Both the position numbers and the translations under genes were made by a program. Source: Crossaster papposus (Eukaryota; Echinodermata; Asteroidea; Velatida; Solasteridae). From it: DNA of 64,000 nucleotides. Under the pieces are notes generated by a model that saw only the letters and a program-made list of their open reading frames with translations, made no database searches and was not told the DNA's origin. Location of the stretch: assembly GCA_037893245.1 (NCBI GenBank), contig JBAIAA010000905.1, positions 111,001 through 175,000 of the forward strand, in the 5' to 3' direction. Of the stretch, positions 1-63,813 are shown piece after piece. Each line of letters starts with the position of its first letter. Position 1 is the first letter of the stretch.

Positions 1-1353
1 ATAAAGATGGGGTTGAAGTTTGTACCGGTACCATGAAGGTATGTTTCCACAAACACAAATGTACATGTACATGGTAATGGCATACCTTGTGCAGCCTTGC
101 TTGTCGGGGGCATTGTAGTGTGAAATCAACCTCTCAGTTAGACCTTGCTTATTCTGAATGCAATTAAAGATTATTGAAAGATACAGGAGATGAAGGAAAA
201 TATGACTGATGTGACAGTGATGGACATTGAGCTTATCTCAAATAATGTATTTAACCTTGCCCTTATTTTGAAATGCACCAGTACATACATTCCAAATCTT
301 TTAAACTTCTAAAAGAAAATGAAGCTTTTGACAATTGTTTGTTATGGAGATATTGCTTTCAGATTTTTTTTCTCGCATAAATTTCAGCAATACAAACTAT
401 AACAACCCCAAAGTTTGGCTTTTTTATCGAGAGTTCAGATAGGGAAAGTTATGCTTATCAACTACCCTCGACAACAAACCTATGGAAAGCCTGCTAATGC
501 TCCCATGAAATGTACCTTTGGTGAAATGACAGTCATGCCAAATTTAGCAACTTTGCGACCTTGCCTTGCTTGTCCATTAAGGAAATGTTGGCCCAACTGT
601 GACCTATTAGTACAAAAAATGCAACAATAGCTATAACTGTGGAAATGAGTAAATGCACAATTCATTTGACTTTATCTAATGCTCAATTATTTTTCTACCT
701 TGAATTCAAAACCTTTGGGTAAAAGACCAATGCAGAGATAATCGAAAAATATAAAAGAAATCATACCTTATCTGACCATTCATAATGGAGTTCAAGTAGG
801 AAATTGCAGAATCAAACTGAAATAAAGCATACAACATGAACGAGAAGATTTAACTTTTAAGCCTTACAAATGACACACTTTATAGGAAGTAATTCACAGA
901 ATGTTATAGGCTTGGGCGATAATTCGGTAATACCATGTAGTTTGGTAGTTCGGAAATCCAATACCAAGGCAGTTGTAAAATATCTACATTGATGTGATGA
1001 TGCACAACATAAATAATATATACTGTAAATTCGGGAGTCATCTCTCATTCTCGGCACATGTTTTTTACAGCAGCAATCAGTTTCTATTTTGGAGGCATTA
1101 TGGAAACTTCATTTGCTTAGTTCCGATCGGTACACATTATAATGCATGTTGCAATCGCCTAGTATTTTTTTCCAAAGAAGTACATGCTGTTTCTGTTAAT
1201 AAAGACAAACCAAGTAAAAGCACATCACCCAGAATAGCAGCGACAATATAATTATGAATTATGTAAATGTTGTTATTGTTTTCACATCTTCCACCAACAT
1301 TGTTTGCACAGTATGATTAGGGCAATACCTCTTATCATTTTGATAAAAGAATT
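1..1353. other. Flank 3' of the integrase-USP gene, no gene seen
   Basis: AT-rich sequence downstream of the stop codon of the minus-strand gene. The open frames are short, lack recognisable domains and look like chance. A pyrimidine microsatellite (repeated CTCTC) lies just upstream at about 1540-1565, inside the last intron. I looked here for an inverted copy of the sequence beyond 9621, as expected if the neighbouring gene were inside a Ginger DNA transposon, and found none by eye. The left end of such an element could lie outside the window. Confidence 0.4.
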
Positions 1354-3611
1354 TCAAAAATAATTTACATGTCTTTTGATGAACTCTTCTGTCACTGTGA
1401 ATTCCATGTCCTCTTGCCAGAGGTCAGTGTCTAGCTGATGCTGCAGCTGTGGTTGCCAGTTGCCATTGCAAAGTTGCAATGTTCTTCCTGGTGTTAAGAC
1501 CAAAATAAAAATAAATATCATGACGGCGTGGCAAAACTCTCTCCTCTCCTCTCCTCTCCTCTCCCTTAACGTGCACACTCACTGCTTTTTTTTCAATGGC
1601 TGTCAGTGCAGTTGTCGCAGCCTGATTAAAGTCTTGTGATACCCCCTGCATTACATACCTCTTTGGTAGTCTCCCCCCCCCCCTAATTTTCAACAGCTTG
1701 TTTAGGAAAAACCTTTTATTTTACTCCCGACATAGAGCTCTGGTGATGGTCAGTCAGTAGACATTCATAACCAATCTTACACTGGATCACTGTGAGTGAA
1801 CACTACATTAAAGTTTGATCTGCTAACTCACTGGATGTTTTGTGTCATCTGTTTCATAATGAATAATCCGTGGTGATCTTGTTGAATGTTAACTGGGGTG
1901 CAACAACGTAATAGTGGCGTTTTTGTTGTGTTTTTGTCATGTGCCACACCTCACAAAGTAAACTCCACAAATATTACCTAGCTTTAAGTGCAACAAGTCC
2001 TAATTCTTACCTTTACGATAGAAACATCCACAGATCTCCTTGTCCCAGGATTTGCCAAGGTTGTTGGTGACACTGCCCTCATCAAACAGCCACCACTTGT
2101 CCCCGTCTGTCTGTACCACAGCCACATAGTGTCCACTTGCCAGAAATTCACCCTTGTGACACTATTTGTTTAGAAGGAAAATATGTAGTGCACACAAGGA
2201 AGTACTATCTAAAGACAGCCACAACTTTAACAAATTGGGACTCTTGCTGACCCCTAATATCAACTGTAAAAAGACCAGCCTTTTTTATGTGGCACTGGGA
2301 TAAATTTTACAGATGTGAAGTGATTTGTAATCAAGGGTCACACTTCCGATTCAAACAATAAAATGGCACCGATGCGACACTTCACATTAAGACTACATTA
2401 TCTTACCAATACGGCAACAAGTCTGTACTGCAGTCGCAGATGATCTCCAATGTCTAGAAAGATTTCTGGTGAAGCAGATATAGGTACATGGCTCTTGCGG
2501 AGACCAGACACACTAAGGTCATCCGCCCAGTTCACAGAAGCAACTTGAGATACATCCCACCTCTTTAGATTGAGACACAGGACAGTTGGCGTTTCATGCT
2601 CATTATGTACCACAGGAGCCATCATTACCTCTTGAAGATCATACCCACTAATATGGTGCAAAAAAAACACATTGAAATTTCATCAAGTACACAGACAGAT
2701 GATTTTGAAATAAGCTTAGATACTGTTTTGGCTTTTGCATCTAAATGTACACAACTAAATGTACTTGGGAATTGAAACTATACTCAGTCATAAATGTTGG
2801 TGCATGAGATTCAAGTGCAACTTCTCAATTATTAATTCAGTCATACAATGTGAAGCCAATGTCAGGCCAGCTTCTTGTCAACAAGAACAATGGAAAAACT
2901 TCCCAGGGGTATTTAATATTAGTGCAAGTCAAATAAACATCCTCTTTTAAAGAAAAAAAAATGGCCACAGTAATTAGGCAACAAAAACATCCCTTGCTCA
3001 GACACAGTAAAATGCAAATTGTAATTACCACCTGTCGCAAACTCCATTAAAGGGTACCGGGTTCCAGTTCCAGAATTCAGTAAGAAGTTCTGAAACATCG
3101 GATGCCTCATCTGACTGTGCTTCTAGAGGAATGCTTAGCAAATTGCTTTCTCCACTTCTCCATTTATTATCGCACTTTGTGCACGACAGTTCATTCCTCA
3201 GCCCAATGGTGAAAAAGCTGTGGAGAAAAGAAAGTCCAAAATCATTCCCACTTCTAAGTGAGGGGGGATTAATAAACTTGCTGTGAGGTTATAAGGCCAT
3301 CATTTGTTTTACCTCTTGAGAAAACTGCAGTCTCCAACACAGTGAGTGCAAGCTGCATTTTTGAATGACTCAATAAAATCGAAGGCATCCTGCTGCAGCT
3401 TGTTGTCGAACTTCGGGAAAAGCTTTTTCAGGGTGACAACGACTCCCTCCACTGCACCATCAGTGATTTCATGTCCAACAATGTCTTTCAGGACCTCCAA
3501 AGCTGGGATGTGATGGCCATCACTCAAGAAGTATTCCCCAATAACTCCTGTATTTGCGATAATTCTTGCGACAGAAGTCATGTAGCAAGTGTTCCTATTT
3601 TGTGGAGCGGG
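1354..3611 (-). other. Ubiquitin-specific protease (USP/C19) module of the fusion gene (exons 8-12)
   Basis: The Cys box is QNRNTCYMTSV in exon 8, with catalytic C470 matching the USP consensus NTCYMNSV; the usual Gly before Asn is Arg. Exon 9 has CTKCDN and a later VCD, where USPs carry a zinc-binding finger; only three of the four cysteines are evident, so zinc binding may be lost. Exon 10 has LCLNLKRWD, the conserved strand before the C-terminal half, and YRLVAVL. Exon 11 has the His box SGHYVAVVQTD (H714) and WWLFDEGSV (D730). The module is about 335 residues, near the minimal USP fold. The expected activity is cleavage of ubiquitin or a ubiquitin-like protein. A role in protecting the transposase from turnover is inference only. 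Confidence 0.82.
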
Positions 3612-6600
3612 CTGTGTAGCAACGACATATTAGAAATGTGTACAAAGTGAATAGGCCAATGTAAACAAACAATTGGGGTTTTTTTCAATTCAAAAAGCAA
3701 TATTTGGCTGGGTAATATTTAGAAAAAGTTCTTTTATGAAGTGCTGAAAGGAATGTTACTTGCCAATAAAATTTTAAAAAACAGAGAACTAAAGTTGCCA
3801 AAATCAGGTTTTGGGGTTACTTGCCATAAGTAGAATATACATATAAAGTGACCTTCCAAGTGATCTTTATGTGTTCATATGTTTACTGATTATGTGCATG
3901 CAAGTAATTAACTTTTTTAAAAACCAGTTAAATTTCATAGAGGAACAGAGAGAACGCAATAGGGATAAAACTTCAAGAGAACGCAATAGGGATAAAACTT
4001 CAAGAGAACGCAATAGGGATAAAACTTCAAGAGAACGCAATAGGGATAAAACTTCAAGAGAACGCAATGGGGATAAAACTTCAAGAGAACATTCAACACA
4101 ATGGGGATAAAACTGTGATGACCTGGTCTTTACCAGTCAAAAAATAGCTTTTATCCCCTTATTACAAACATTCTAGATCTGAAAAGTTGAACCTTAACAA
4201 TAACAAAAACTCATCAAAAGTGATGAACTATCAATGCAATGTTATAATTGATAATGTAGTAACTACCGAACAGAAAACGCTTCACCTACCGATAATGTAA
4301 TAACAATTAGCATATAAAATATGGTTTAGTCAGTTTTAGGATGGACAAACAGTCACAAGTATGGTAATTCCTGTGTACTCACTGAGTCCTTTGACTTCTG
4401 CTGGGACCTGACATCTGATACAAAGGCAATAATGCATAGTTGTTTGATTTAAATCACTTGATTTAAATCAAGTGATAGAAACACATTTTTTGTACACCAG
4501 TGATTTGCGATGATGTGACTAGTTTGATATACAATATGTCCCTGACCAATTTCAAATTGGCACGGAAACCAAGGACATGAGTGCTATCATTTGAAGCAAG
4601 GTTAAAACAAGGGTCTTAAATGTCATACATGGGCTTAGCACCCGCAATTCCAATTTGAAAGTCATCTGAGTCCACCTGACCTTGACCGAAGTCTGCCTGA
4701 CCTTGACATGGGCCCACTTGACCTGGGCCATGAGGGTTGTAGCCTTGGACTGGGCCTTGAGGGTCAATATCAAAGCCTCAGCCTTGCGAGTTAAACCTAT
4801 GGCCCAGGCCTTGGGAGGTAGAGCATTTCCGCCAACACTAGTGAAAAACAGTCATACAGTATGAACATGTCATATGAACATGTAGCAGGTTGCACTGAAA
4901 CATCAATAAAAAATAACCAGGACAATGAACAGCATGAAAAGGATTCAGATTTACCTCCCTTACTAGCGAAATATTGCTTTAAGTGGCAGCCATTGACACG
5001 ACTGGACCGTGGCTCCTTTGTCTTAGCATTGGTCAGGTTGTACAATCCTTTTTCGTGCACCGCCATAACAATGTAGGGGCCAGTCCAATTTGGCTGCAGT
5101 TTGCCCCCTTTTCGAGTAGCCTTTCGTGCATTCTTTAGAAGCACAGAGGTCCCAACTGAAAATTGCTGCAGAAAAATGCAAGAACAAGATTAAGTCTTGT
5201 TAAAGTTTAACTTTTTACTTTGTACAAATTAATAATCAAAGGTTGTTGCTAGATTGAGAAGTGGTGGATAGCAGTGTCATTTATGGATTGCTGGGCTTCA
5301 TGAATTTGGGGTTGGTTGGGGGGGGGTTTGTGCACGCTTCCCCCCCCCCCCCCCCCACACTTTCTACGGGGAGGGGGGGGGGGGGGGGGTGGCGGGGGGC
5401 AGCAGAAGTCCAGGTGAACTGAGCAAAATGATATAAACTATATAAAATATATATATTCAGTGCTCCCTTTTAAAAATGTGTGCATCCCCCGGGTGCCTTC
5501 CTGGAAGATCGACCCTAGTTACGCCACTGGACAGTGGTCATAAAACTGATTGTTTAGAGATACCTTTTTGGACTGGTGACGCTTATCATAGTTGTACTTC
5601 TGTCTGGCCTGTGCCTTCAGGATGTTCTTCTTCGCCTGGGGTGCCACTGCCTGTCTCACTGCCATCATGGACCTTACAATAGGTTCGGCTTGGTCAACCC
5701 TGTCACCACTGCCATCGGGTTGAACACTACAGCCACCACGTTGATCGCTACGGCTACCAGGTTGATCGCTAGGGTCACCGGGTTGATTGCAACGGCCACC
5801 AGGTTGATCACTACGCACATCAGGTCGATCACGCAGGTCAATGGGCAGAACAGGATCCCTGTACACAAAAAAATTGAACAATATGGTAATGCATATTTGT
5901 AGAAGACTGCGGTTGTGTGTCGAAACACAAACTAAATATTAAGACATGTGGAGCCCAGATCTTTTTTCTTTTTTTTAATTATTGTGTTTACATGTATATA
6001 TATTTTTTTTAACAGCTGAAAACATATGTCATGTAAAACACAAACTTAATCAACGGTTCATTTGAAATAACTATAACTAGACAGAAATTACAGCTAATTT
6101 ACAGCAAATATGACATAAAAGGGAAACAATGAGGTCTAAGATGTCATCAAATCTGCTAACACAAAGTTAGCACTGTTCCCTTACTGTAAGTAAAACTAGT
6201 TCAATCCAAAAGGTGCGACAAGAAATAGGAAACAGCAGAAATCATTTGTTACACCAACAACATACAGTACTGGTCAAGGGCATTATATTTGCTGTTAGAT
6301 TGATATGGGGCTATAGAGATTGGGATTTAAAGCTTTACATGGTGGAGACAAGACTGAGAAAATTTGCGGTAACACCATAAATTGGATCTCTTAAGAAGAG
6401 GTAGGGTGGTTCTGATAAGAACCGGTTGGTTTGACACGACGTTTCGACCAGTGTCCTCAGTTTGTCCTCAGGACGACCTGAGGACGTGAGGACCTTTTTC
6501 ACCTCAGGACGACCAAAGCACACTGGTCGAGTGAGTGAGTGAGTTTTTAGGGTTTAACGCTGTACCAGCATCAATGGCCATATTCACGGCGGGAACAAAT

Positions 6601-9600
6601 TTCATTCAACAATTTTTTATTTCATTCAACAATTAATGTGAAGAAGTTACAGTTTTAGAGGTGGGAGGAAAACCCCAGAAGAATATCCTGGGGAAAAACC
6701 CACGGAGTCAGGCAGGGACTGAAAACCCAATCCACATATTGGCCCAGGCCGGATTCGAACCCGGGTCATAGTGGTGGAAGGCGAGGAAAGAACCGCTACA
6801 CCAACCCGACTCCCCCACACTGGTCGAAACGCCGTGTTAAACCAACCGGTTTTTATCAGAACCACCCTACCTCTTCTTAAGAGATCCAATCCATGGTGTT
6901 ACCGCAAATCTTCTCAGTATTATATTATTATGTACACAAATTTAAAAGACAGTAACGTGCTAATACAAAGAAAACCAACAGTGTGTTAAGTCCTTTACCT
7001 TCCATACATAATAAAAAATGGTGAATACCCGGTGGAAGCATGAACTGATGTTCTATATCCAAATAGGACAGCATCTAGGTTCTCATCCCAGTTGTCCTCC
7101 TTGTCATTGACAACTTTGGCCAGACACCGTTGCAATGTCTGATTGAACCTTTCGTCCAGCCCATTCGTCTGTGGGTGGTAAGCCGACGTCATTCTGTGCT
7201 CTGTACCAGTTAGACGAAAGAGCTCCTGATTCACTTTGTTGACAAATTCCCTTCCCTGGTCTGTAATAATAGTCTTGATACACCCAAGCCTGAAAACGAA
7301 GGAGAAAGAACTTTTTACAACAGGTAGTACCGTACGCAGGAAAAAATATATACACACAAAATAGGCCCAAAAAATGGAAGCTTGTTGAGGTTTTGCTTTC
7401 CCTTGAACAATATACATTTGTCAGGCTAGAGAGTAATATCACAATATGCTTACACTATAAAACGGGAATGTCTCTAATGCTTTTAGGGGTCTACAAAGTT
7501 TCGTCATTTGCCCGTATTTTCTCGTTTCAGACATTTTTATCCCAAACAACAGCATTTTAGACATTCATGGTTCATAGTGTTATAAAATGTTTGTGTTTCC
7601 TGAAGGTTAATGTCACAGGGCACAAGGTCTATAGCAACTCTGTTCATGAGTAAAGTGTCACCTTACTCTTTCATACTGAAAGTTGTTTCATACTGCTAAG
7701 AAGCTGATACTGACTTTCGTCTCAAAGATAGCTTTTATGAACAACACTTTTGGGCCTTACTGTTCAAAACCAGCCTATGTGGAAGAATAGGACATAAACG
7801 CACACCTACGTTGTAAAGGTCTTATAAAGAAACAGTGCCACTGTCAGACTTGATTTGTTGGGAACAGCCTCAGATACTGGCCACTTGGAGAAAAAATCAC
7901 AGAGTGTGATTAAGTATCTGTTCCCTCTCGGGGTTTCTTTGAGAGGGCCAATCATGTCCAATCCAGCCTGTGCAAAATGAAATAACAAAAAATACTTCAT
8001 GCGCAAGTTTAAAAAACACATTATTAGTAGTACATGTAGTTGGTTGTACATATTTTGTTGTTTGGAGGCTATAAATGACTACACATCTGTTAACAACTTG
8101 CCTGATCCCATACTCTAGACACTGGTATCGGATGGAGGGCTGGTGTTGATTTGGCGAGTGTGCTATTCCCGCGCTGGCATACATCACAACGTTTAAGAAA
8201 TTCCTTGACATCTGATTGGATGCCGGGCCAAAAATACCTCTTGGCGACATTGTGGTAAGTTTTGTCCCGTCCGAGATGGGCACCTAGGTGGTTGGTGCAG
8301 GTAAAAATAAAGGAATACATGATGTAGTATATAAAACTGTGGCCAGCAGGCAGGGTTGAGAGATTTGCCGGACACACGGTATCACAGAATTGGCAAGAAT
8401 ACCAAACCATCACTGTGCAATATATGTAGTGATATGGGCCACACACTCTGCAATAAAGTGCTTTGCTTGGTCAAGTTGTCTTCATGTCAAAGTCAACTTG
8501 TCTTGTCTCATTAGACTATTTGACAGACAGTCCCACTTTTTTTTTACAATACAAATGTTTAACCAAGTGCAAAAGAGCACAGTTCTTACACCCACTGCCC
8601 ATGTCAAAATTGATAGGAGAGGCAAAAATGATCAGGGGCTAATCGGTCAAATAATTGTAGGTCAACTCGCCCCTTACCTACTCGTCCCTTACCAACTCAC
8701 CCTCTAACTGACTCGCCCCTTACAAACTCGCCCCCTGGCCAACTCGCCCCTGGCCTACTCGCCCCCGACCGACCCGCCCCCTGGCCGACTCACCCCCTTA
8801 GTAGGCAGTCCACTCGTTTGAACCATGGACCTTAAAGTTGTAACCATAAAACGTGTCATTTTGAGGAATAAAAATGAACTCTGAACCTAGACATTAACTC
8901 ATTTTTTTCCCCAATATTAATTATGTATCATTGAAAAGAGATTCACATATACCACACGCAATTTATCGATAAATCGCATTTATCAGAATTTGGAAATTTC
9001 AGGTCCTGAAATAGGCCGCCTATATTACGTTGTATAACTTTTTCAAAACCTATAAATATAAAATAGCATTCCTCCATGGGCCTATCCACAGAAAATAATA
9101 GTTGTTTGGAATCAGATTGTATCGCTTGTAACAAAAACTATTATTGATTTTATATTATTTACAATTTATCTGTGGGCTGAGAGTACGGGCAAAATACAGT
9201 ACATTATGTCTAGGTTGACAGCTCATTTTTATTCTGCAAAATGACACATTTTATGGTTACGGATACATCGGTCATCGTACAAGGTCCATGATTTGTACAC
9301 AACGTTGTACGTTACACAAGTCAACGGAGGAGTCCAGTCTGGGCGAGTCTAGGACTAACTAGACATGCTATTGCTAGTGCTACTTGCTAGGCCGTAGCCG
9401 TAGGTACCTGAGACAGCGTGGATGGCGTGTAATTTGTGTTGTTGTTCCTCAGCATACGCAACAACCAGCCGTCCACTGTAGAACAGATTCCCCCCTTCCA
9501 AAGTGAATGACTTTGCTTTTCTTCTCAGAGCCCTCTTTTGGTTTTTATCCAGGTCTGGAGGGTGTTGTCCTGAAGACAGGAACTCTATAAGTCGCTGCAC

Positions 9601-9621
9601 CTCCTCCATAAAGTCGGCCAT
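1354..9621 (-). CDS. Integrase-USP fusion gene, 12 exons, 797 aa (Ginger1-like transposase or domesticated derivative)
   Basis: Exons on the minus strand, in order: 9621-9408, 8283-8102, 7967-7810, 7289-6999, 5858-5564, 5165-4955, 4414-4383, 3611-3313, 3217-3032, 2647-2407, 2161-2011, 1487-1354. Every acceptor is AG. Every donor is GT except exon 2, which has CAG|GCAAGT, a classic GC donor. Exon phases fit at all 11 junctions and total 2394 coding bases with one terminal TGA. The start is the first Met of the first integrase exon. Residues 1-450 are a Ty3/Gypsy-like integrase and 462-797 a ubiquitin-specific protease. Exon 7 (32 nt) is the weakest call, but without it exon 6 (phase 1) cannot join exon 8 (phase 0). 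The USP cannot be a separate gene starting in exon 8, because its first Met lies after the catalytic Cys. Known Ginger1 transposases have this integrase layout with an OTU or Ulp1 protease; the USP is unexpected. Whether this is a transposon or a host gene is undecided. Confidence 0.82.
3951..4111. repeat. 27-bp minisatellite, five units
   Basis: The unit begins AGAACGCAATAGGGATAAAA and repeats at 3951, 3978, 4005, 4032 and 4059, with a degenerate sixth copy. It lies in the intron between exons 7 and 8 of the integrase-USP gene. The open frame across it on both strands is a by-product of the 27-bp (3 x 9) period. Confidence 0.95.
5310..5395. repeat. Opposed poly-dC and poly-dG tracts
   Basis: A G-rich run at about 5310-5326 is followed by 17 C (5340-5356) and then 17 G (5373-5389). 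The C and G tracts could pair as a hairpin with a 16-base loop, and either could form a four-stranded structure. They lie in the intron between exons 5 and 6 of the integrase-USP gene. Run lengths may be imprecise because homopolymers sequence poorly. Confidence 0.85.
6353..6918. mobile_element. Foldback MITE with ~102-bp inverted arms, split by a SINE
   Basis: The left arm 6353-6454 and right arm 6817-6918 are near-perfect reverse complements starting ACTGAGAA. The loop contains short GGACGACC repeats. A SINE at 6531-6815 sits between the loop and the right arm, so the original element was about 270 bp. I could not assign a target duplication for the foldback itself. It lies in the intron between exons 4 and 5 of the integrase-USP gene. 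Confidence 0.9.
6531..6815 (-). mobile_element. tRNA-derived SINE (family A), complete, 12-bp target duplication
   Basis: Read on the minus strand, a tRNA-like head has a GGTTCGAATCC B box. It is followed by a body with GGGTTTTCCTCCCACC and a 3' end of GCGTTAAACCC, then AAAACTCACTCACTCAC. The element is bounded by exact copies of CACACTGGTCGA at 6519-6530 and 6816-6827. This shows insertion into the pre-existing foldback MITE. Truncated copies of the same family lie at 56446, 57388 and 58200. Confidence 0.9.
8655..8800. repeat. Degenerate ~17-bp minisatellite (ACTCGCCCCT core)
   Basis: ACTCGCCCCT or close variants recur about nine times with intervening TTACCTA or GGCCA. The repeat lies in the first intron of the integrase-USP gene. 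The units are imperfect, so the array is old or under little homogenisation. Confidence 0.8.
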
Positions 9622-10267
9622 GACGACAACATGCGCTATGCGTACGTACCCATATCAAAGACCCTAGAGCGCCGTTGCCCTATGTATATGTACCGCGCGT
9701 ACACGGTTGAGAATAGAATTTGTACGCTTGCAAAAAGTCTGAAATGATACTGATTACTGCCAATTTCCGTTTCTCGCAGAAACGTAGATCGGCCGATTTA
9801 ATTAATAAAGCTATTTAAATGTTGATAATTCGATAAAGGGAAGAGAAGTCCAAATAATAAATACCCTGTGGGCTTAAATTCATTGAAATAACATCAAAAT
9901 AACCACTTATGTGTTGAACAATTGGGGGGACAAAATTACCTAGAGAGGGGACAGAATAAACTGAAGGGGGACAGAATTAACGGCTCCAGGGGGACACTTT
10001 TACCTAGGTAATTCTGTCCCCCCGGACAAGATTACCGGGGGACAGAATTACCTGCCACAACGGCCCTGCTTCCTGCCATCAATTCCGGGACCGGACAAAC
10101 AAGCACACTTTTCCTGTCACTGGTTAGCGTTCATTTGATTAAAAAACAAATCAAACTCATAATTCTCGTACATGTATACATACCTGTATGTACATGTATG
10201 TACATTTCTGACAAAAAAATCTGAATTATTGAGTAATTTACCCGAAAACGTGGGTTTCCTTTGGAGT
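9622..10267. other. Upstream flank of the fusion gene with a GGGGGACAGAATTACC repeat block
   Basis: No gene is seen. From about 9925 to 10055 the motif GGGGGACAGAATTACC recurs with variants in both orientations, including AGGTAATTCTGTCCCCCC. This gives a hairpin-capable block around 9990-10055. It lies within 450 bp of the start codon of the minus-strand gene, so it could include promoter sequence, but no TATA or initiator element is convincing. Confidence 0.6.
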
Positions 10268-10563: not shown

Positions 10564-11371
10564 GGATGCGCGGATGCGCGGATGCGCGGATGCGCGGATG
10601 CGCGGATGCGCGGATGCGCGGATGCGCGGATGCGCGGATGCGCGGATGCGCGGATGCGCGGATGCGCGGATGCGCGGATGCGCGGATGCGCGGATGCGCG
10701 GATGCGCGGATGCGCGGATGCGCGGATGCGCGGATGCGCGGATGCGCGGATGCGCGGATGCGCGGATGCGCGGATGCGCGGATGCGCGGATGCGCGGATG
10801 CGCGGATGCGCGGATGCGCGGATGCGCGGATGCGCGGATGCGCGGATGCGCGGATGCGCGGATGCGCGGATGCGCGGATGCGCGGATGCGCGGATGCGCG
10901 GATGCGCGGATGCGCGGATGCGCGGATGCGCGGATGCGCGGATGCGCGGATGCGCGGATGCGCGGATGCGCGGATGCGCGGATGCGCGGATGCGCGGATG
11001 CGCGGATGCGCGGATGCGCGGATGCGCGGATGCGCGGATGCGCGGATGCGCGGATGCGCGGATGCGCGGATGCGCGGATGCGCGGATGCGCGGATGCGCG
11101 GATGCGCGGATGCGCGGATGCGCGGATGCGCGGATGCGCGGATGCGCGGATGCGCGGATGCGCGGATGCGCGGATGCGCGGATGCGCGGATGCGCGGATG
11201 CGCGGATGCGCGGATGCGCGGATGCGCGGATGCGCGGATGCGCGGATGCGCGGATGCGCGGATGCGCGGATGCGCGGATGCGCGGATGCGCGGATGCGCG
11301 GATGCGCGGATGCGCGGATGCGCGGATGCGCGGATGCGCGGATGCGCGGATGCGCGGATGCGCGGATGCGC
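10564..11371. repeat. 8-bp satellite GGATGCGC, 101 exact copies
   Basis: This is an uninterrupted, error-free array of 808 bp. The same 8-mer occurs two to three times in each of the following ~138-bp units. A partial ~138-bp unit precedes this block at about 10495-10563, so the long array is an expansion inside one such unit. All six frames are open because 24 bases make a stop-free repeat. The long frames here (344, 343, 310, 357 and 337 codons) are artefacts, not genes. Confidence 0.99.
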
Positions 11372-11380
11372 GGATGCGAG

Positions 11381-12611
11381 GTCGAAAAAAGCTTGACGTC
11401 ATCACGTGTTAGGCTCATTACAGTCAACAGAGGGCCGTATATGAAGCGAATTATAGAAGTGACGGTTTTGGGTTGTCTGGGATGCGTGGATGCGCGGATG
11501 CGCGGATGCGAGGTCGAAAAAAGCTTGACGTCATCACGTGTTAGGCTCATTACAGTCAACAGAGGGCGGTATATGAAGCGAATATAGAAGTGACGGTTTC
11601 GGGTTGTCTGGGATGCGTGGATGCGCGGATGCGCGGATGCGAGGTCGAAAAAAGCTTGACGTCATCACGTGTTAGGCTCATTACAGTCAACAGAGGGCCG
11701 TATATGAAGCAAATTATATATATAGAAGTGACGGTTTTGGGTTGTCTGGGATGCGTGGATGCGCGGATGCGCGGATGCGAGGTCGAAAAAAGCTTGACGT
11801 CATCACGTGTTAGGCTCATTACAGTCAACAGAGGGCCGTATATGAAGCGAATTATATATATAGAAGTGACGGTTTTGGGTTGTCTGGGATGCGTGGATGC
11901 GCGGATGCGCGGATGCGAGGTCGAAAAAAGCTTGACGTCATCACGTGTTAGGCTCATTACAGTCAACAGAGGGCCGTATATGAAGCGAATTATATATATA
12001 GAAGTGACGGTTTTGGGTTGTCTGGGATGCGTGGATGCGCGGATGCGCGGATGCGCGGTCGAAAAAAGCTTGACGTCATCACGTGTTAGGCTCATTACAG
12101 TCAACAGAGGGCCGTATATGAAGCGAATTATATATATAGAAGTGACGGTTTTGGATTGTCTGGGATGCGTGGATGCGCGGATGCGCGGATGCGAGGTCGA
12201 AAAAAGCTTGACGTCATCACGTGTTAGGCTCATTACAGTCAACAGAGGGCCGTATATGAAGCGAATTATATATATAGAAGTGACGGTTTTGGGTTGTCTG
12301 GGATGCGTGGATGCGCGGATGCGCGGATGCGAGGTCGAAAAAAGCTTGACGTCATCACGTGTTAGGCTCATTACAGTCAACAGAGGGCCGTATATGAAGC
12401 GAATTATATATATAGAAGTGACGGTTTTGGGTTGTCTGGGATGCGTGGATGCGCGGATGCGCGGATGCGCGGTCGAAAAAAGCTTGACGTCATCACGTGT
12501 TAGGCTCATTACAGTCAACAGAGGGCCATGATATGAAGCGAATTATATATATAGAAGTGACGGTTTTGGATTGTCTGGGATGCGTGGATGCGCGGATGCG
12601 CGGATGCGCGG
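11381..12611. repeat. Nine ~138-bp tandem units with CRE/E-box cores
   Basis: Units begin GTCGAAAAAAGCTTGACG at 11381, 11513, 11644, 11782, 11920, 12058, 12196, 12334 and 12472, with spacing 131-132 then 138. Each contains TGACGTCATCACGTG, a CRE palindrome followed one base later by an E-box. Each also has an AT-rich segment missing some bases in the first two units, then two or three GGATGCGC copies. The ninth unit ends at a divergent copy at 12611. Open frames of 313-320 codons are repeat artefacts. Confidence 0.97.
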
Positions 12612-12709
12612 TCGGCATAGGCAAAAAGTCAATAGACGTGGGACGTAGTATGTCTGTTTACACATGCGCTTTCTTACGCGAACAAAGTCGGGACGCCAGA
12701 TGAGTTTAT

Positions 12710-13193
12710 TTAGGTGCATAATTAACCCATAATAATTGATACAGTCCTTATTGTATACAGTCCCTAGTTTTTCGTATACACGACTTTTATACCTTTTTTT
12801 ATAAGACCCTATCTAGACGAGAATATTTAGGTGCATAATTCACCCATACAAACGGATACAGTCCCTAGTTAATTGTATACAGTCCCTAGTTTTTCGTATA
12901 CACGACTGTTATACCTTTTTCTATAAGATCCTATCTAGATGAGATTATTTAGGTGCATAATTCACCCATAAAAATGGATACAGTCCCTAGTTAATTGTAT
13001 ACAGTCCCTAGTTTTCCGTATACACGACTTGTATACCTTTTTCTATAAGATCCTATCTAGATGAGATTATTTAGGTGCATAATTCACCAATAAAAATGAA
13101 TACAGTCCCTAATTAATTGTATACAGTCCCTAGTGTTTCGTATACACGACTTTGATACCTTTTTCTATAAGACCCTATCTAGATGAGATTATT
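12710..13193. repeat. Four ~120-bp tandem units
   Basis: Units start TAGGTGCATAATTCACCCAT near 12710, 12828, 12950 and 13072, with a partial fifth at 13194. Each holds two copies of ATACAGTCCCTAG and a CGTATACACGACTT motif. The units have diverged more than the adjacent ~138-bp array. Confidence 0.93.
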
Positions 13194-13519
13194 TAGGTGT
13201 CTATTTAAACAATTCTCTGTGTTAATATAAACAATAATGAAAGTCGTGTCTACGGACTGTATCCATTTATTTTGAATTATCGCTGTCAACCGGCGTTGGT
13301 TTTTATACGTTCAGCGCGTATTGAGTTTAATGATTTAACTAAAAATGGTTTGCGCAGCAGCGCCCTCTTGTGGTATTTAGTTTTTTTAGTTACCGTCTAG
13401 CTGGGCGGAGAATGGAATGACCCGGTTTATAGGCCGTTTTCTAAACCCCTGCCTTCAGCCTATTGCTAAACCACATGGATGAAACCGAGACGTAGACGAA
13501 GCTGGGGTTAGTAAAACGG

Positions 13520-36690: not shown

Positions 36691-38061
36691 TCAAGTGTAT
36701 CTAGGGTTCGGCTTTGAGATGCGACCAGAGCGGGTCATGGCGGGCTGTGGTGTAGGTGCTTGGGCGATGGCGGGTTGTGGTGGAGGGGCTTGGGCAATGG
36801 CGGGTTGTGGTAGAGGTTCCTGCGAAGGCATGTGGAAGTCGGGCAACTGCTGTTGTTGTGGGAGTGGTTCAGAGACGGGTAAGAGGTGCCTCCGGTTTCG
36901 GCGATAAAGCTTGCCTTGGGCATTGACGATGTAGGATCTGGGGTTGCCAGAATGCCTTTGGACAATGCCAAGCTGATCGTGTCCTTTGGGTGATTGGAGA
37001 CGAACAACTTGTCCTGGGTTCAGTGGTCGGAGGGGTTTGGCGGATTTGTCGTATGAAGACTTCTGCTGCTGGAGTCGCTTTCGTAACTGCGCTGTGACGC
37101 GTGTGTAGACGGTGGGTTTAAGGAGTGGCGTCGAGGTGGGGATGGTTGTTCGAAGACGCCGTGACATGAGACGTTGGGAAGGTGAGCCAAGTTGAGGGTT
37201 GGTTGGGACGTTGCGAATGTTTAGCAAATTTCGGTGAAGGTCGGATCCTTCGCGTTTTGTCTTCCCTAGGAGTAGTTTGGCGCGCTTGACAGAGCTTTCA
37301 GCAAGTCCATTGGACTGAGGGTAGTAGGGACTACTTGTTGTATGCTGGAAACCCCATGACTGTGCAAACTGTTTGAAGGCGAAGCAATCAAATTGTCGTG
37401 CGTTGTCACTGATGACGATGCGGGGAATTCCGTGGATGGAAAATTGTCTCTTGAGTACCTCAATGACTGTGGAGGCACAGGTGTTGTCGAGCGAGGCGAA
37501 GTCAAACCAGCCAGAGTATGCGTCGCCAAGGGCTAGGTAGTCCATGTCGTTCCAATGGAATAGGTCGACACCGATAAGTTCCCAGGGGAGACTGGGTGGT
37601 GGGTAGCTTTTCAATGGTTCTTTCTGTTGGTGGGCTTTGGTAGCATTGCAAACTGTGCATCCAGAGACAGATTGTTCGATATCCATGCACATTGATGGCC
37701 AGTAAACTATATCCATGGCTCTGCGTTTGGTAGCTTCGATACCTGGGTGACCTTCATGTAGTAATTTGGTGTATTCCGTACGCAGTAACTTGGGAATGAT
37801 GGCCTTTTGTCCCTTCAAGATGATGCCACGTTCGAGAGTTAGTTCGTCTCTGAATGGGAAGTAGGGGCGAGCATCGGGTGGGGCATTGTTGGCGTTTGAA
37901 GGCCATCCGCGAGTGATGACATCCGTTAGCTGTTGCATGGCGGGGTCACAGGCGGTTGCTGCTTTGAGCTGTACAAGTCGTGTATCGGAGATTGGTAGGA
38001 GGGTCATGACTTCCAGGTCGAGGTTTTCGGTACCAGTTGTTGACATGGGAGCGCGTGACAA
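36691..38061 (-). pseudogene. pol 3' part: integrase of the Ty3/Gypsy element, frameshifted from gag-pol
   Basis: The 456-codon frame carries an H2C2 finger (HEGHPGIEATK then CTVCNATK). The core has D in GVDLFHW, D in ISDNARQF and E in NGLAESS, with 35 residues between the second D and the E. A C-terminal domain is followed by Pro/Gln/Ala-rich PQPAIAQAP repeats. All catalytic residues are present. It is in a different frame from the upstream RNase H. The shift falls at a run of five identical bases at 38074-38078. That is not a usual recoding site for this family, so it is a mutation or a sequencing error. The apparent start Met is not a true start. Confidence 0.9.
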
Positions 38062-40637
38062 AGTGTCGGCAATAAAAAGTTCTTCCCTTTCTTGTACACA
38101 AGGGTGATGTTATACTTTTGCAACCGAAGAAGCATGCGTTGAAGCCTGGCAGGGGCACTGAGCAGAGGCTTTTTGACGATGGTGACCAATGGCTGGTGAT
38201 CGGTTTCAACGATAATGTCTTTACCATATATGTAGTCATGGAACTTGGTGCAGGCAAACACAACGGCAAGCAGTTCTTTTTCAATCTGCGCATACCGTTG
38301 TTCGGTGTCGGTCATAGTGCGCGAAGCGTATGCGACAGGGTCGCCCTCTTGTAGGCAGGCTGCACCAAGGCCAAACTTTGATGCATCGCAGGTCACTGTG
38401 ACGGGCTTCTTGACATCAAAGTACTGGAGTGTCGGTGCATGAGCGATCTTGGCCTTGATTTCCAAAAATACTGCGTTGTGACAGTCCAACCAGCACCAAT
38501 GAACGTCATTATGTGTGAGCTCGCGTAGCGGGGCTGCTAAGTCGCTTAGATTCGGTATGAACTTGGCGAGGTATGTCACCATGCCGAGGAAGCGTTGTAG
38601 GGCAGTGACGTCCTGAGGTGGAGGCATGTCGTTAATAGCACTGACTTTGGCTGGATCGGGCCTAAGGCCAGTGTCGGTGAAGACGTGACCGACGGATGAC
38701 ACTCTTGTAAGACCAAATCGGCATTTCTGGGGGTTGAGACGCATGTTGATTTTGCGTATCCGATTAAGGACGGTTTTGAGGTTTTGATCATGTTCCTCTT
38801 TGGTACGTCCACCAACTAGAATGTCATCCACGATGATGGAGCATGGCAGATCAGCAAACAACTGCTCCATGGTTCTCTGGTATACATCAGAGGCAGAACA
38901 AATACCATAGGGCATGCGGAGATAACGGTATCTGCCGTGTGGCGTGCTAAATGTAGTCAGCAATGATGACTGATAATCGAGGGGAATCTGCCAGAAGGAG
39001 CATTTGGCATCAAGCACTGAGAAAACAGTGGCACCGTCCATCTGGGCGGCAACTTCCTCTACTGTTCGCGTAGGGTGGTGTGGGCGCTTTAGGGCTAGGT
39101 TAAGGTCACGAGGGTCGATGCATAAGCGAATTTCTTCGGTGTTTTTCTTATGAGTTGCGACCATAGAGGAAACCCAGTCCGTCGGTTCGGAGACTGGAGT
39201 GATCACACCGAGGGTGGTCATGCGCTTGAGTTCGGACTTGACCTTGTCTTGCATCGCTGCTGGGATGCGCCGTGGGGGACGTACAACTGGTGTAGCATTA
39301 GGGTCGATGGTCATGGTGTAGGTGACAGGTAGTGACCCGAGGGAGCCGTCGAACAGGTCTTTGTAATCTTTGAAGATCTGTGTCGATGTTGTGTCAGTTG
39401 AGACGTGGTAGACCATGTTATTGACAGACAACAGGCCTAGGCGGAGGCAATCAGTCAATCCGAGTATAGCTTTCACTTGGGCATCAACAACGTGAAAGTC
39501 GATCATGTAATCAGTCTGTGATGATTCAATGCGGCATGGCAGTGTAGCTAGTCCATCTGTGTGGAGCTCGTTCCCTCCATAAGCTATGAGCGTGGTTGTC
39601 TTAGAACTGTCAATAGACTTAGGTGGTGCGATGACATTGTAGAGCTTCATGGGTAGGACATTACAACGTGCACCTGTGTCAAGTTGGATGGGAACATGTG
39701 TGCCATTCACCACAAGTGTAGCGTGGATGTCATGCTTCGAGTTTAGGTTGGTTCGGTCTAGGGCTCGAATGTGGAAAAGTTCTTGCTCATCCACAATAGA
39801 GTCGTCCTCCTCTGAGTAGGAGTCGGTGTTGACGCTATGTATGCGGCGGCTGCTCCGGCAGTAATCACCGTAGTGATTCTTTTTGTTGCACTTGTGACAA
39901 GTTTTGCCATAGGCCGGACATTCAAACCTCTTGTGAAAAGTACCACAATTTCCACAAGGTTTTCTGGGCTGTTGTTGCTGTGTTGATCTACGGCTTGCGG
40001 GTTGTTGCCATTGGTTGGGCTTACTGGGCTTTGAGCGTTGGGCCTGTTTCTTTTTGAAAGCATTGATGCTGGAACTTGAATCTGCATTGGCGCTTGAACT
40101 GGTAGACGCTGTCAGCATTTTAGCCTGGTCACCTGCGAGCTGCATTGATTGTGCAAGTTCCACTGTGCGCTTGAGGTCGAGTTTGTCCTCTGGTTGGGCA
40201 AGCAGGGATTTCTGGATCCGTTCATCCTGCACACCACAAACAAGCCGGTCTCTCAGCATCTCGTTGAGATTTTGTCCGTAGTTACAGTCACTTGCAAGTG
40301 CACGCAGTGCTGCTAAATATTCAGCAATTGACTCACCAGACCGTCGGTATCGGCTGTTGAACTGAAAACGGGCGATGATGCTGGACTTTGTAGGCTTGAA
40401 ATGCTTCTCTAGTTTATCCACTAGCTCTTGGTATGTAGCTTCGTTGGGTTTCTTTGGGGCGAGTAGATCGCTGATCAGCTTATATGTTTGTGAACCAACG
40501 ACGGAGTTAAGTATGGCCCGTTTGCGTGTTGCATCACTGATGTTGTTCGCCGTGAAATATTCACCAAGACGATCGGTGTACATTAGCCATGTCTCTTTCT
40601 TGTTGAAAAATTCACCAATAGAGCCGAAAGTGGCCAT
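38004..40637 (-). CDS. gag-pol polyprotein (Gag, protease, reverse transcriptase, RNase H), 877 codons
   Basis: The start ATG lies about 30 bases from the primer site, as in compact Ty3/Gypsy elements. Gag occupies roughly residues 1-220. It ends in a Cys-rich region with CGNCGTFHKRFEC and a CHKCNKKNHYGDYC knuckle (CX2CX4HX4C). The protease motif IQLDTGARCNVLP lies near 320. Reverse transcriptase covers about 440-640, with the active site IIVDDILV (Ile in place of the usual Tyr/Phe two residues before DD). RNase H (TCDASKFGLGA, ETDHQPL) is at about 720-850. The frame then runs about 30 codons out of register into a stop, past the break at 38074-38078. Gag and Pol are in one continuous frame. 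Confidence 0.93.
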   Translation of the reverse strand: MATFGSIGEFFNKKETWLMYTDRLGEYFTANNISDATRKRAILNSVVGSQTYKLISDLLAPKKPNEATYQELVDKLEKHFKPTKSSIIARFQFNSRYRRSGESIAEYLAALRALASDCNYGQNLNEMLRDRLVCGVQDERIQKSLLAQPEDKLDLKRTVELAQSMQLAGDQAKMLTASTSSSANADSSSSINAFKKKQAQRSKPSKPNQWQQPASRRSTQQQQPRKPCGNCGTFHKRFECPAYGKTCHKCNKKNHYGDYCRSSRRIHSVNTDSYSEEDDSIVDEQELFHIRALDRTNLNSKHDIHATLVVNGTHVPIQLDTGARCNVLPMKLYNVIAPPKSIDSSKTTTLIAYGGNELHTDGLATLPCRIESSQTDYMIDFHVVDAQVKAILGLTDCLRLGLLSVNNMVYHVSTDTTSTQIFKDYKDLFDGSLGSLPVTYTMTIDPNATPVVRPPRRIPAAMQDKVKSELKRMTTLGVITPVSEPTDWVSSMVATHKKNTEEIRLCIDPRDLNLALKRPHHPTRTVEEVAAQMDGATVFSVLDAKCSFWQIPLDYQSSLLTTFSTPHGRYRYLRMPYGICSASDVYQRTMEQLFADLPCSIIVDDILVGGRTKEEHDQNLKTVLNRIRKINMRLNPQKCRFGLTRVSSVGHVFTDTGLRPDPAKVSAINDMPPPQDVTALQRFLGMVTYLAKFIPNLSDLAAPLRELTHNDVHWCWLDCHNAVFLEIKAKIAHAPTLQYFDVKKPVTVTCDASKFGLGAACLQEGDPVAYASRTMTDTEQRYAQIEKELLAVVFACTKFHDYIYGKDIIVETDHQPLVTIVKKPLLSAPARLQRMLLRLQKYNITLVYKKGKNFLLPTLCHALPCQQLVPKTSTWKS

Positions 40638-40666
40638 GATGAATTAAGAAATAGTTCCTGTACTTA

Positions 40667-61326: not shown

Positions 61327-63806
61327 GATGATGGGATGATGGGATGATGGGATGATGGGATGATGGGATGATGGGATGATGGGATGATGGGATGATGGGA
61401 TGATGGGATGATGGGATGATGGGATGATGGGATGATGGGATGATGGGATGATGGGATGATGGGATGATGGGATGATGGGATGATGGGATGATGGGATGAT
61501 GGGATGATGGGATGATGGGATGATGGGATGATGGGATGATGGGATGATGGGATGATGGGATGATGGGATGATGGGATGATGGGATGATGGGATGATGGGA
61601 TGATGGGATGATGGGATGATGGGATGATGGGATGATGGGATGATGGGATGATGGGATGATGGGATGATGGGATGATGGGATGATGGGATGATGGGATGAT
61701 GGGATGATGGGATGATGGGATGATGGGATGATGGGATGATGGGATGATGGGATGATGGGATGATGGGATGATGGGATGATGGGATGATGGGATGATGGGA
61801 TGATGGGATGATGGGATGATGGGATGATGGGATGATGGGATGATGGGATGATGGGATGATGGGATGATGGGATGATGGGATGATGGGATGATGGGATGAT
61901 GGGATGATGGGATGATGGGATGATGGGATGATGGGATGATGGGATGATGGGATGATGGGATGATGGGATGATGGGATGATGGGATGATGGGATGATGGGA
62001 TGATGGGATGATGGGATGATGGGATGATGGGATGATGGGATGATGGGATGATGGGATGATGGGATGATGGGATGATGGGATGATGGGATGATGGGATGAT
62101 GGGATGATGGGATGATGGGATGATGGGATGATGGGATGATGGGATGATGGGATGATGGGATGATGGGATGATGGGATGATGGGATGATGGGATGATGGGA
62201 TGATGGGATGATGGGATGATGGGATGATGGGATGATGGGATGATGGGATGATGGGATGATGGGATGATGGGATGATGGGATGATGGGATGATGGGATGAT
62301 GGGATGATGGGATGATGGGATGATGGGATGATGGGATGATGGGATGATGGGATGATGGGATGATGGGATGATGGGATGATGGGATGATGGGATGATGGGA
62401 TGATGGGATGATGGGATGATGGGATGATGGGATGATGGGATGATGGGATGATGGGATGATGGGATGATGGGATGATGGGATGATGGGATGATGGGATGAT
62501 GGGATGATGGGATGATGGGATGATGGGATGATGGGATGATGGGATGATGGGATGATGGGATGATGGGATGATGGGATGATGGGATGATGGGATGATGGGA
62601 TGATGGGATGATGGGATGATGGGATGATGGGATGATGGGATGATGGGATGATGGGATGATGGGATGATGGGATGATGGGATGATGGGATGATGGGATGAT
62701 GGGATGATGGGATGATGGGATGATGGGATGATGGGATGATGGGATGATGGGATGATGGGATGATGGGATGATGGGATGATGGGATGATGGGATGATGGGA
62801 TGATGGGATGATGGGATGATGGGATGATGGGATGATGGGATGATGGGATGATGGGATGATGGGATGATGGGATGATGGGATGATGGGATGATGGGATGAT
62901 GGGATGATGGGATGATGGGATGATGGGATGATGGGATGATGGGATGATGGGATGATGGGATGATGGGATGATGGGATGATGGGATGATGGGATGATGGGA
63001 TGATGGGATGATGGGATGATGGGATGATGGGATGATGGGATGATGGGATGATGGGATGATGGGATGATGGGATGATGGGATGATGGGATGATGGGATGAT
63101 GGGATGATGGGATGATGGGATGATGGGATGATGGGATGATGGGATGATGGGATGATGGGATGATGGGATGATGGGATGATGGGATGATGGGATGATGGGA
63201 TGATGGGATGATGGGATGATGGGATGATGGGATGATGGGATGATGGGATGATGGGATGATGGGATGATGGGATGATGGGATGATGGGATGATGGGATGAT
63301 GGGATGATGGGATGATGGGATGATGGGATGATGGGATGATGGGATGATGGGATGATGGGATGATGGGATGATGGGATGATGGGATGATGGGATGATGGGA
63401 TGATGGGATGATGGGATGATGGGATGATGGGATGATGGGATGATGGGATGATGGGATGATGGGATGATGGGATGATGGGATGATGGGATGATGGGATGAT
63501 GGGATGATGGGATGATGGGATGATGGGATGATGGGATGATGGGATGATGGGATGATGGGATGATGGGATGATGGGATGATGGGATGATGGGATGATGGGA
63601 TGATGGGATGATGGGATGATGGGATGATGGGATGATGGGATGATGGGATGATGGGATGATGGGATGATGGGATGATGGGATGATGGGATGATGGGATGAT
63701 GGGATGATGGGATGATGGGATGATGGGATGATGGGATGATGGGATGATGGGATGATGGGATGATGGGATGATGGGATGATGGGATGATGGGATGATGGGA
63801 TGATGG
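61327..63806. repeat. 8-bp satellite GATGATGG, 310 exact copies
   Basis: A 2480-bp uninterrupted array with no substitution that I can see, followed by one variant unit. It most likely lies in an intron of, or just after, the Cys-rich gene. The true length may differ from the assembly. Confidence 0.98.
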
Positions 63807-63813
63807 GATGATG

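Follow-up and report, generated by a model that had tools for sequence, protein, structure and literature searches.

A Gypsy-type integrase and a predicted ubiquitin-specific protease in one gene of a probable, recently mobile Ginger1-type transposon from the sea star Crossaster papposus

Structure of the integrase-USP gene

The window analyzed here is a 64,000-nucleotide stretch of the Crossaster papposus assembly GCA_037893245.1 (contig JBAIAA010000905.1, hereafter C905, positions 111,001 to 175,000). Its low end holds most of a minus-strand gene in which a Gypsy-type integrase is followed by a ubiquitin-specific protease (USP; family C19), and which lies within a candidate DNA transposon of the Ginger1 type. 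The gene model, built from the sequence and from conservation in homologues, has 17 exons and 16 introns and encodes 929 amino acids. Fifteen of the introns are GT-AG, the exception being intron 2 (window 7968-8101), which has a GC donor after exon 2 and an AG acceptor. The exons are as follows, in window positions unless a contig is named.

9408..9621, minus strand: exon 1, start codon, N-terminal YPYY-like region and first zinc-finger His
8102..8283, minus strand: exon 2, remainder of the H2C2 finger, then the GC donor; Pfam Integrase_H2C2 at residues 60-112
7810..7967, minus strand: exon 3, integrase core, D136
6999..7289, minus strand: exon 4, integrase core, D195 and E231; near-identical copies in the same genome
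5564..5858, minus strand: exon 5, linker with a repetitive stretch, then a conserved KAQxRQK region
4955..5165, minus strand: exon 6, GPY/F region (WTGPYIV)
4383..4414, minus strand: exon 7, 32-nt linker exon between the integrase and USP halves
3313..3611, minus strand: exon 8, USP Cys box (NTCYM, C470)
3029..3217, minus strand: exon 9, USP zinc-ribbon CxxC; end shifted by 3 nt from the first model
2407..2647, minus strand: exon 10, USP
2011..2161, minus strand: exon 11, USP His box (GHY) and FDE
1369..1487, minus strand: exon 12, start of the C-terminal tail; donor CAT|gtaaat
767..816, minus strand: exon 13, C-terminal tail
516..603, minus strand: exon 14, C-terminal tail
86..153, minus strand: exon 15, C-terminal tail
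C905:110467-110553, minus strand: exon 16, outside the window
C905:109898-110012, minus strand: exon 17, the last, outside the window

A preliminary description of this locus had proposed a gene of 12 minus-strand exons, all of which were recovered in place with their junctions in phase. Its stop at 1354, by contrast, is met only when the intron behind residue 793 is read through its GT donor. Exon 12 closes at 1369, where gtaaat follows, and exons 13 to 17 continue with matching phases. Their product matches the C terminus of a homologue predicted in the sea cucumber Apostichopus japonicus (P0001), and both this protein and the homologue from the sea urchin Strongylocentrotus purpuratus (P0002) extend beyond the USP domain. 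Exon 9 most likely ends at 3029 rather than at 3032, because a donor placed 3 nt later changes VCDSG to VCDRCG and brings back a zinc-binding cysteine, regaining a CxxC pair that both homologues conserve. With this correction the USP His and Asp become residues 715 and 731 (714 and 730 in the first model). Nor is 9621 the end of the feature, as first proposed; it is the start codon only, and the mobile element reaches window 10059.

The integrase half has the N-terminal Gypsy-like organization of Ginger1, with an H2C2 finger, a DDE core, and a GPY/F motif. The H2C2 finger reported earlier corresponds to the Integrase_H2C2 match across exons 1 and 2, and the GPY/F motif to WTGPYIV in exon 6; D136, D195, and E231, with 35 residues between the last two, were found as described in the 12-exon model. 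Among Pfam profiles, Integrase_H2C2 (58.9 bits), rve (40.1), and UCH (75.6) scored above their cut-offs; of the three profiles named in advance for this check, rve and UCH thus passed, while zf-H2C2 (22.5 bits) fell below its cut-off. The closest solved relatives of this half are Ty3 Pol and PFV integrase. In the YPYY region, judged by eye from the alignment of the three fusions, P21, F39, and Y48 are invariant, and the first Tyr of the motif is His20 in the window protein and Tyr in P0001 and P0002.

The second half carries the C19 hallmarks: a Cys box, a His box with Asp, and a zinc ribbon, with three CxxC pairs kept. The catalytic residues listed previously (C470, H714, and D730) were confirmed in the numbering of the 12-exon model. 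No OTU or Ulp1 domain was found by Pfam in the window protein, which has UCH instead. A profile of the three USPs retrieves USP46, USP12, and USP36 first (4e-22 to 2e-21), and the best Protein Data Bank chain matches the window USP at 29 bits in phmmer, whose scale differs from that of the one-to-one bit scores given below. The USP is followed by a tail of approximately 170 residues. No Pfam family was found in the window tail, and the P0001 tail has one sub-threshold Pfam match. Compared one to one, the tails of the window protein and P0001 match at 3.5e-22 and those of P0001 and P0002 at 3.2e-7; the direct match between the window and P0002 tails is weak, with 27 of 1000 shuffles scoring equally high.

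The same fusion in other echinoderms

The best two of 505 protein matches to the whole product were P0001 (38% identity over 94% of the query) and P0002 (36%, 97%), and both carry H2C2, rve, and UCH domains. With matches over 94% and 97% of the query in two annotated animal proteins, the fusion is not a chance arrangement, and the protein search proposed with the preliminary description thus returned the same fusion in predictions from A. japonicus and S. purpuratus. Two shorter A. japonicus predictions (P0013 and P0024) are also of the integrase-USP kind. A protein of 1261 amino acids from Frankliniella fusca (P0112) has an integrase, then Ulp1, then a UCH match; that match begins at profile position 18, and the Cys box is perhaps missing. 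P0112 could represent either an independent association with a USP or a join made by gene prediction. The remaining matches among the best 120 of the 505 have Ulp1, OTU, PHD, or other domains, or integrase domains only, and many of the next-best integrase matches among these carry Ulp1 or OTU. A profile of the three fusions retrieved no further protein with integrase and UCH among the best 120 of 623 matches. With the USP part alone, a protein search gave nothing at E ≤ 0.001 among 1828 candidates, although homologues exist; those that it missed were found with the whole protein. On P0001 and P0002, NCBIfam gave only bacterial matches of the insertion sequence (IS) type, below cut-off.

These homologues bear on whether two neighboring genes, an integrase and a USP, have been misread as one. 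The join depends on the predicted 32-nt exon 7, and this counts against a single gene. On the other side, both echinoderm homologues have the halves in the same order in a single predicted protein, and both halves lie within one pair of element ends. A genome search with integrase exon 4, in which the best 150 of 3977 candidates were scored, found 13 loci at 94 to 95% identity of match. Twelve of these are the loci that carry USP exon 8, and the thirteenth (on contig C816) is 1.7 kb from the contig end, short of the expected USP position. None of the other 137 scored matches exceeds 43% identity, and many of them lie in long open frames as in Gypsy-type pol genes. The earlier claim of one spliced gene for integrase and USP is thus borne out by the shared order and by the co-occurrence at 12 of 13 loci, and an unrelated neighbor as the source of the USP, which had been named as its refutation, gives way to a fusion found in two echinoderms. 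Two separate genes therefore have hardly any probability.

Ends of the element and its copies

The mobile element spans C905:107337 to window 10059. It is bounded by a 657-bp inverted repeat with two mismatches, one of them in the flank (C905:107332-107988 against window 9408-10064). The features outside the exons are the following.

9408..10059, minus strand: 5′ terminal inverted arm, 652 bp, with outer end TGTGGCAGG; upstream region and whole exon 1
C905:107337-107988: partner of the 5′ arm, outside the window
10060..10063: element flank ACGG; the opposite flank, C905:107333-107336, is CCGG
6350..6921: palindromic repeat in intron 4, with 105-bp arms at 93%; also in the sister copy C318a

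The window copy thus ends in TGTGGCAGG...CCTGCCACA and is flanked by CCGG at its low end and by ACGG at its high end. A sister copy on another contig, C318a (C318:196768-210481; 13,714 bp), starts with TGTGAAAGG, ends with CCTGCCACA, and has CCGG on both sides; its ends are of the form TGTGA/TGTGG. Its terminal inverted repeats (TIRs) are imperfect, with a best local alignment score of 55 (200 base shuffles reached no more than 17.5), and its outermost 20-odd nucleotides also match in register. Homology between C318a and the window copy stops upstream at the TIR and downstream where the inverted arm of the window copy starts. Outside the replaced arm, the two copies align in a 7.1-kb block with 12 mismatches and a 6.1-kb block with 8; the blocks overlap by approximately 0.14 kb, and there are also 72 gap positions. 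A third copy, C318b, of which the two end regions were fetched, has the same upstream end beside CCGG and lacks the last 184 bp on its low side. Upstream homology among the three copies stops at the same TGTGG end, and their flanks differ.

From these comparisons, the ancestral element would have had short imperfect TIRs, and in the window lineage 652 bp of the 5′ end, including exon 1, would have been copied in inverted orientation in place of the 3′ end, perhaps by faulty gap repair. The inverted copy stops exactly at the exon 1 splice donor, a boundary for which chance, microhomology (CAG/CATG), or an RNA-templated step is possible. A second palindromic repeat lies in intron 1 (window 8840-9260) and, like that in intron 4, resembles a miniature inverted-repeat transposable element. 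Since C318a has both this repeat and that in intron 4, the two probably entered before the window and C318a copies separated.

Twelve loci in the genome carry near-identical USP exon 8, and an additional internally deleted fragment (C693) lacks it. Ten other copies were fetched, each in two halves, and in nine of the ten the homology to the window copy continues past both ends, with two upstream flank types. In 7 of the 10, all 17 exons are identical to those of the window; the others differ in two exons (C1067, one of them by 3 missing nucleotides), one (C1273), and four (C318a). Copies with shared flanks lie on C905, C390, C75, C1310, C1567, C1067, C1227, and C1273, and the low arm of the C1227 copy carries approximately 270 extra bp. 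Pairs of copies occur 287 kb apart on C905 and 296 kb apart on C390, and their order along the gene direction is the same, pointing to a large segmental duplication or uncollapsed haplotypes. The window copy would represent one insertion that later exchanged its 3′ end for an inverted 5′ end and then multiplied together with its flanks.

The arms of the window copy share 99.7% identity and stop precisely at the exon 1 donor, and many copies have common flanks, as would be expected if the inverted repeat and the copy number were assembly artefacts. The structure is nevertheless found on eight contigs, with slight variations and two upstream flank types, and the ends and flanks of the C318 copies differ. 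An artefact of this sort deserves very little credence.

A recently mobile transposon or a host gene

The preliminary description had offered either an active transposon or a domesticated gene. The TIRs, the CCGG target duplication, and the three insertion sites decide in favor of a transposon that was mobile recently. Conservation of the integrase-USP protein for a host function, as in a domesticated Ginger1-derived gene, would be consistent with the 16 introns, the full-length homologous fusions in two echinoderms, and the 17 coding exons identical to the window in most of the fetched copies. The introns, however, are nearly identical too (approximately 20 substitutions over 13 kb to C318a), so exon identity is no sign of selection, and the TGT...ACA ends, the CCGG duplication, and the three insertion sites also tell against domestication. 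We consider domestication very unlikely.

Several observations weigh against a recently mobile Ginger1-type element. The flanks of the window copy are unequal, and two matching flanks were found at one insertion only, C318a. The TIR alignment of C318a pairs nucleotides 65-219 of one end with 21-175 of the other, a shift of 44 nt, and the shuffle control was lenient, because shuffling destroys a repeated GGTAATTCTGTCCCC motif that both ends hold. C318a and C318b are on a single contig, separated by 57 kb, and have eight flanking bases in common (CCGGCATA) before they differ. Of the twelve full copies, ten appear to have arisen from a single insertion by segmental duplication. Exon 3 of C318a is longer by 1 nt, either a frameshift or an assembly error. 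Finally, 16 introns contrast with the 0 to 4 given for Ginger1 (PMC2836005). On balance, the element is very probably a recently mobile Ginger1-type DNA transposon of approximately 13.7 kb. In its part from exon 17 to the high end, it has one recognized gene, which encodes a Gypsy-type integrase, a C19 USP, and the tail of approximately 170 residues.

Relationships of the two halves

The USP-plus-tail blocks of the window protein, P0001, and P0002 are, judging from pairwise scores, specific relatives: window and P0001 score 172 bits, window and P0002 147, and P0001 and P0002 118, against 43.5, 31.6, and 21.9 bits for the same three blocks (window, P0001, and P0002, respectively) with the Frankliniella USP. 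The integrase halves were placed by trees, before which 34 of 125 proteins were dropped because residues 75-400 of the integrase query were uncovered. In a tree of 34 rows, the window protein and P0001 are joined (99/95), and P0002 falls with two OTU-type and two unlabeled rows (95/89); a single integrase-USP clade is rejected (approximately unbiased test, p-AU 0.009). A quicker 55-row tree, comprising 54 of the remaining 91 proteins and the window protein, places P0002 likewise with weaker support (94; single clade, p 0.024). On the integrase tree, the OTU labels need at least six changes and the Ulp1 labels at least five, on starred branches; the labels are precomputed Pfam calls, and rows labeled none may be fragments. 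In a further tree with Gypsy-like integrases from the same genome (26 of 27 rows, one having no match), three of these are set apart (96/100), and the Ginger rows fall on one side of a branch in only 32% of 200 bootstrap trees; a fourth Gypsy-like row, taken from window 36.7-38.1 kb, forms a very long branch.

The phylogeny of both halves proposed for this locus therefore gave a divided answer, the integrase halves conflicting with a single fusion clade in the tree and the USP halves being closest to each other in pairwise bits. Since the integrase tree rejects one clade while the USP halves are specific relatives, module exchange is suggested: C-terminal modules exchanged between Ginger1 lineages would be the simplest reading, one that long branches and the small number of USP rows (three) weaken. 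Tentatively, and at less than even probability, the proteases may be exchangeable cassettes, with one USP-plus-tail on at least two integrase lineages, as for OTU and Ulp1, and with selection for some deubiquitinase or deSUMOylase whose activity is needed for transposition.

Predicted activity and possible role of the protease

By analogy with known families, the integrase half would bind the TG...CA termini and insert them at CCGG-like sites with a 4-bp stagger. In those families, TG...CA termini are handled by the zinc finger together with the integrase core and are inserted at a staggered target; the 4-bp CCGG duplication fits such end joining.

For the USP, deubiquitinase activity is predicted from its domain. 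An Asn and a Gly before the catalytic Cys are typical of the USP oxyanion hole. Before C470, the window protein has Q465 (−5) for Asn and R467 (−3) for Gly, changes that could weaken the protease, and P0001 and P0002 keep both residues. In an AlphaFold model of P0001 (32 rows), the integrase half is good and the USP half poor, with a predicted local distance difference test score below 60 in every 10-residue block from 451 to 720. Both observations weigh against the reading proposed here, and the two substitutions call for caution over the earlier suggestion that such transposases gain by escaping ubiquitin-type control. The substitutions at −5 and −3 are what a dead passenger might show, that is, an enzymatically inactive domain whose fold serves only to bind ubiquitin or partners. 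Against this, the Cys, His, and Asp and the three CxxC pairs are kept, and Gln is the oxyanion residue in other cysteine proteases. An inactive domain is therefore unlikely.

If active, the USP would work in cis, stripping ubiquitin from the transposase or from its complex with DNA and thereby protecting the transposase from proteasomal turnover. Such protection in cis is the most likely role that we can propose, at somewhat below even probability. A similar function has been suggested for VTD, in protecting proteins required for transposition from proteasomal degradation (PMC9741609). It is possible, with somewhat lower probability, that the USP instead acts on ubiquitin at chromatin or on repair factors at the target; the OTU and Ulp1 domains of Ginger1 have been suggested to act in repair around transposition (PMC2836005).

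Other features of the window and assembly

Window 36694-40643 (minus strand) holds two frames of a Gypsy-type long terminal repeat retroelement with reverse transcriptase, RNase H, H2C2, and rve; its gag-type matches are below cut-offs. Large tandem arrays occur at 10564-11378 (8-bp unit), approximately 0.5 kb outside the transposon, and at 11348-12614 (138 bp), 12698-13199 (122 bp), and 61327-63813 (8 bp). Contigs C8 (at least 5.19 Mb) and C1027 carry dozens of bacterial-type integrase-core frames, many equal-scoring (best E 1.9e-29), and look like the genome of an IS-rich bacterial associate within the animal assembly.

Comparison with known systems

Ginger1 transposons encode an integrase of approximately 400 amino acids with H2C2, DDE, and GPY/F, the last mediating multimerization, and with a YPYY motif upstream of the finger. 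They have TGTNR ends, TIRs of approximately 40 to 270 bp, and 4-bp target duplications of CCGG or CCGT/ACGG, measure approximately 2.6 to 7 kb, and carry OTU, Ulp1, or neither (Ginger1-1_BF has neither); the first intron of Ginger1-5_HM is GC-AG (Bao, Kapitonov, and Jurka 2010, PMC2836005). The element described here is alike in the H2C2 finger, DDE core, and GPY/F motif of its integrase, its TGTGA and TGTGG ends, a C-terminal protease of the ubiquitin/SUMO type, and a GC-AG intron. It is also alike in its flanks (CCGG/CCGG at C318a, CCGG/ACGG at the window copy, and CCGG at the one complete end of C318b) and in its terminal inverted repeats, which are imperfect at C318a, the 652-bp arm of the window copy being secondary. 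It differs in having a USP in place of OTU or Ulp1, in its 16 introns, in its length of 13.7 kb, and in that inverted arm.

Among Ginger1-derived host genes, GIN1 and GIN2 have six to eight introns (PMC2836005), and Imagin is a further example (PMC12863088), in whose text the terms ubiquitin, OTU, Ulp1, USP, and protease are absent. Their Ginger1-derived, integrase-like nature is shared, whereas the present gene has TIRs and several copies. P0001 and P0002, both predicted proteins, likewise have an integrase, a USP, and a related tail; in P0112 a weakly similar USP is placed after a Ulp1 domain.

DNA transposons that are unrelated to each other (Helitrons, Ginger1, and Mutator-like) carry ubiquitin/SUMO protease domains (PMC2836005, PMC9741609). 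Those of Helitrons are OTU and VTD deubiquitinases, and transposon OTU domains are reported as untested for activity (PMC9741609); Helitrons are similar in being DNA transposons with deubiquitinase domains but differ in the transposition enzyme and the deubiquitinase classes. Closest in protease type is Trichomonas XP_001314237.1, a transposase_11 protein with Peptidase C19 (PMC2836005), which likewise has C19 on a transposase but differs in transposase family and host. An integrase-USP fusion was not described in the titles and abstract openings of the literature searched, mostly outside subscription journals. The earlier inference of a third protease type therefore holds relative to the published Ginger1 list of OTU and Ulp1 and is to be narrowed with regard to the C19-transposase fusion in print for Trichomonas and the fusions in public echinoderm predictions. 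What appears to be new is a USP as the protease of a Ginger1-type transposase; C19 on another transposase was known already. The role of these proteases becomes directly testable now that the same transposase core is seen with a third protease, which differs in structure and apparently occurs in two integrase lineages.

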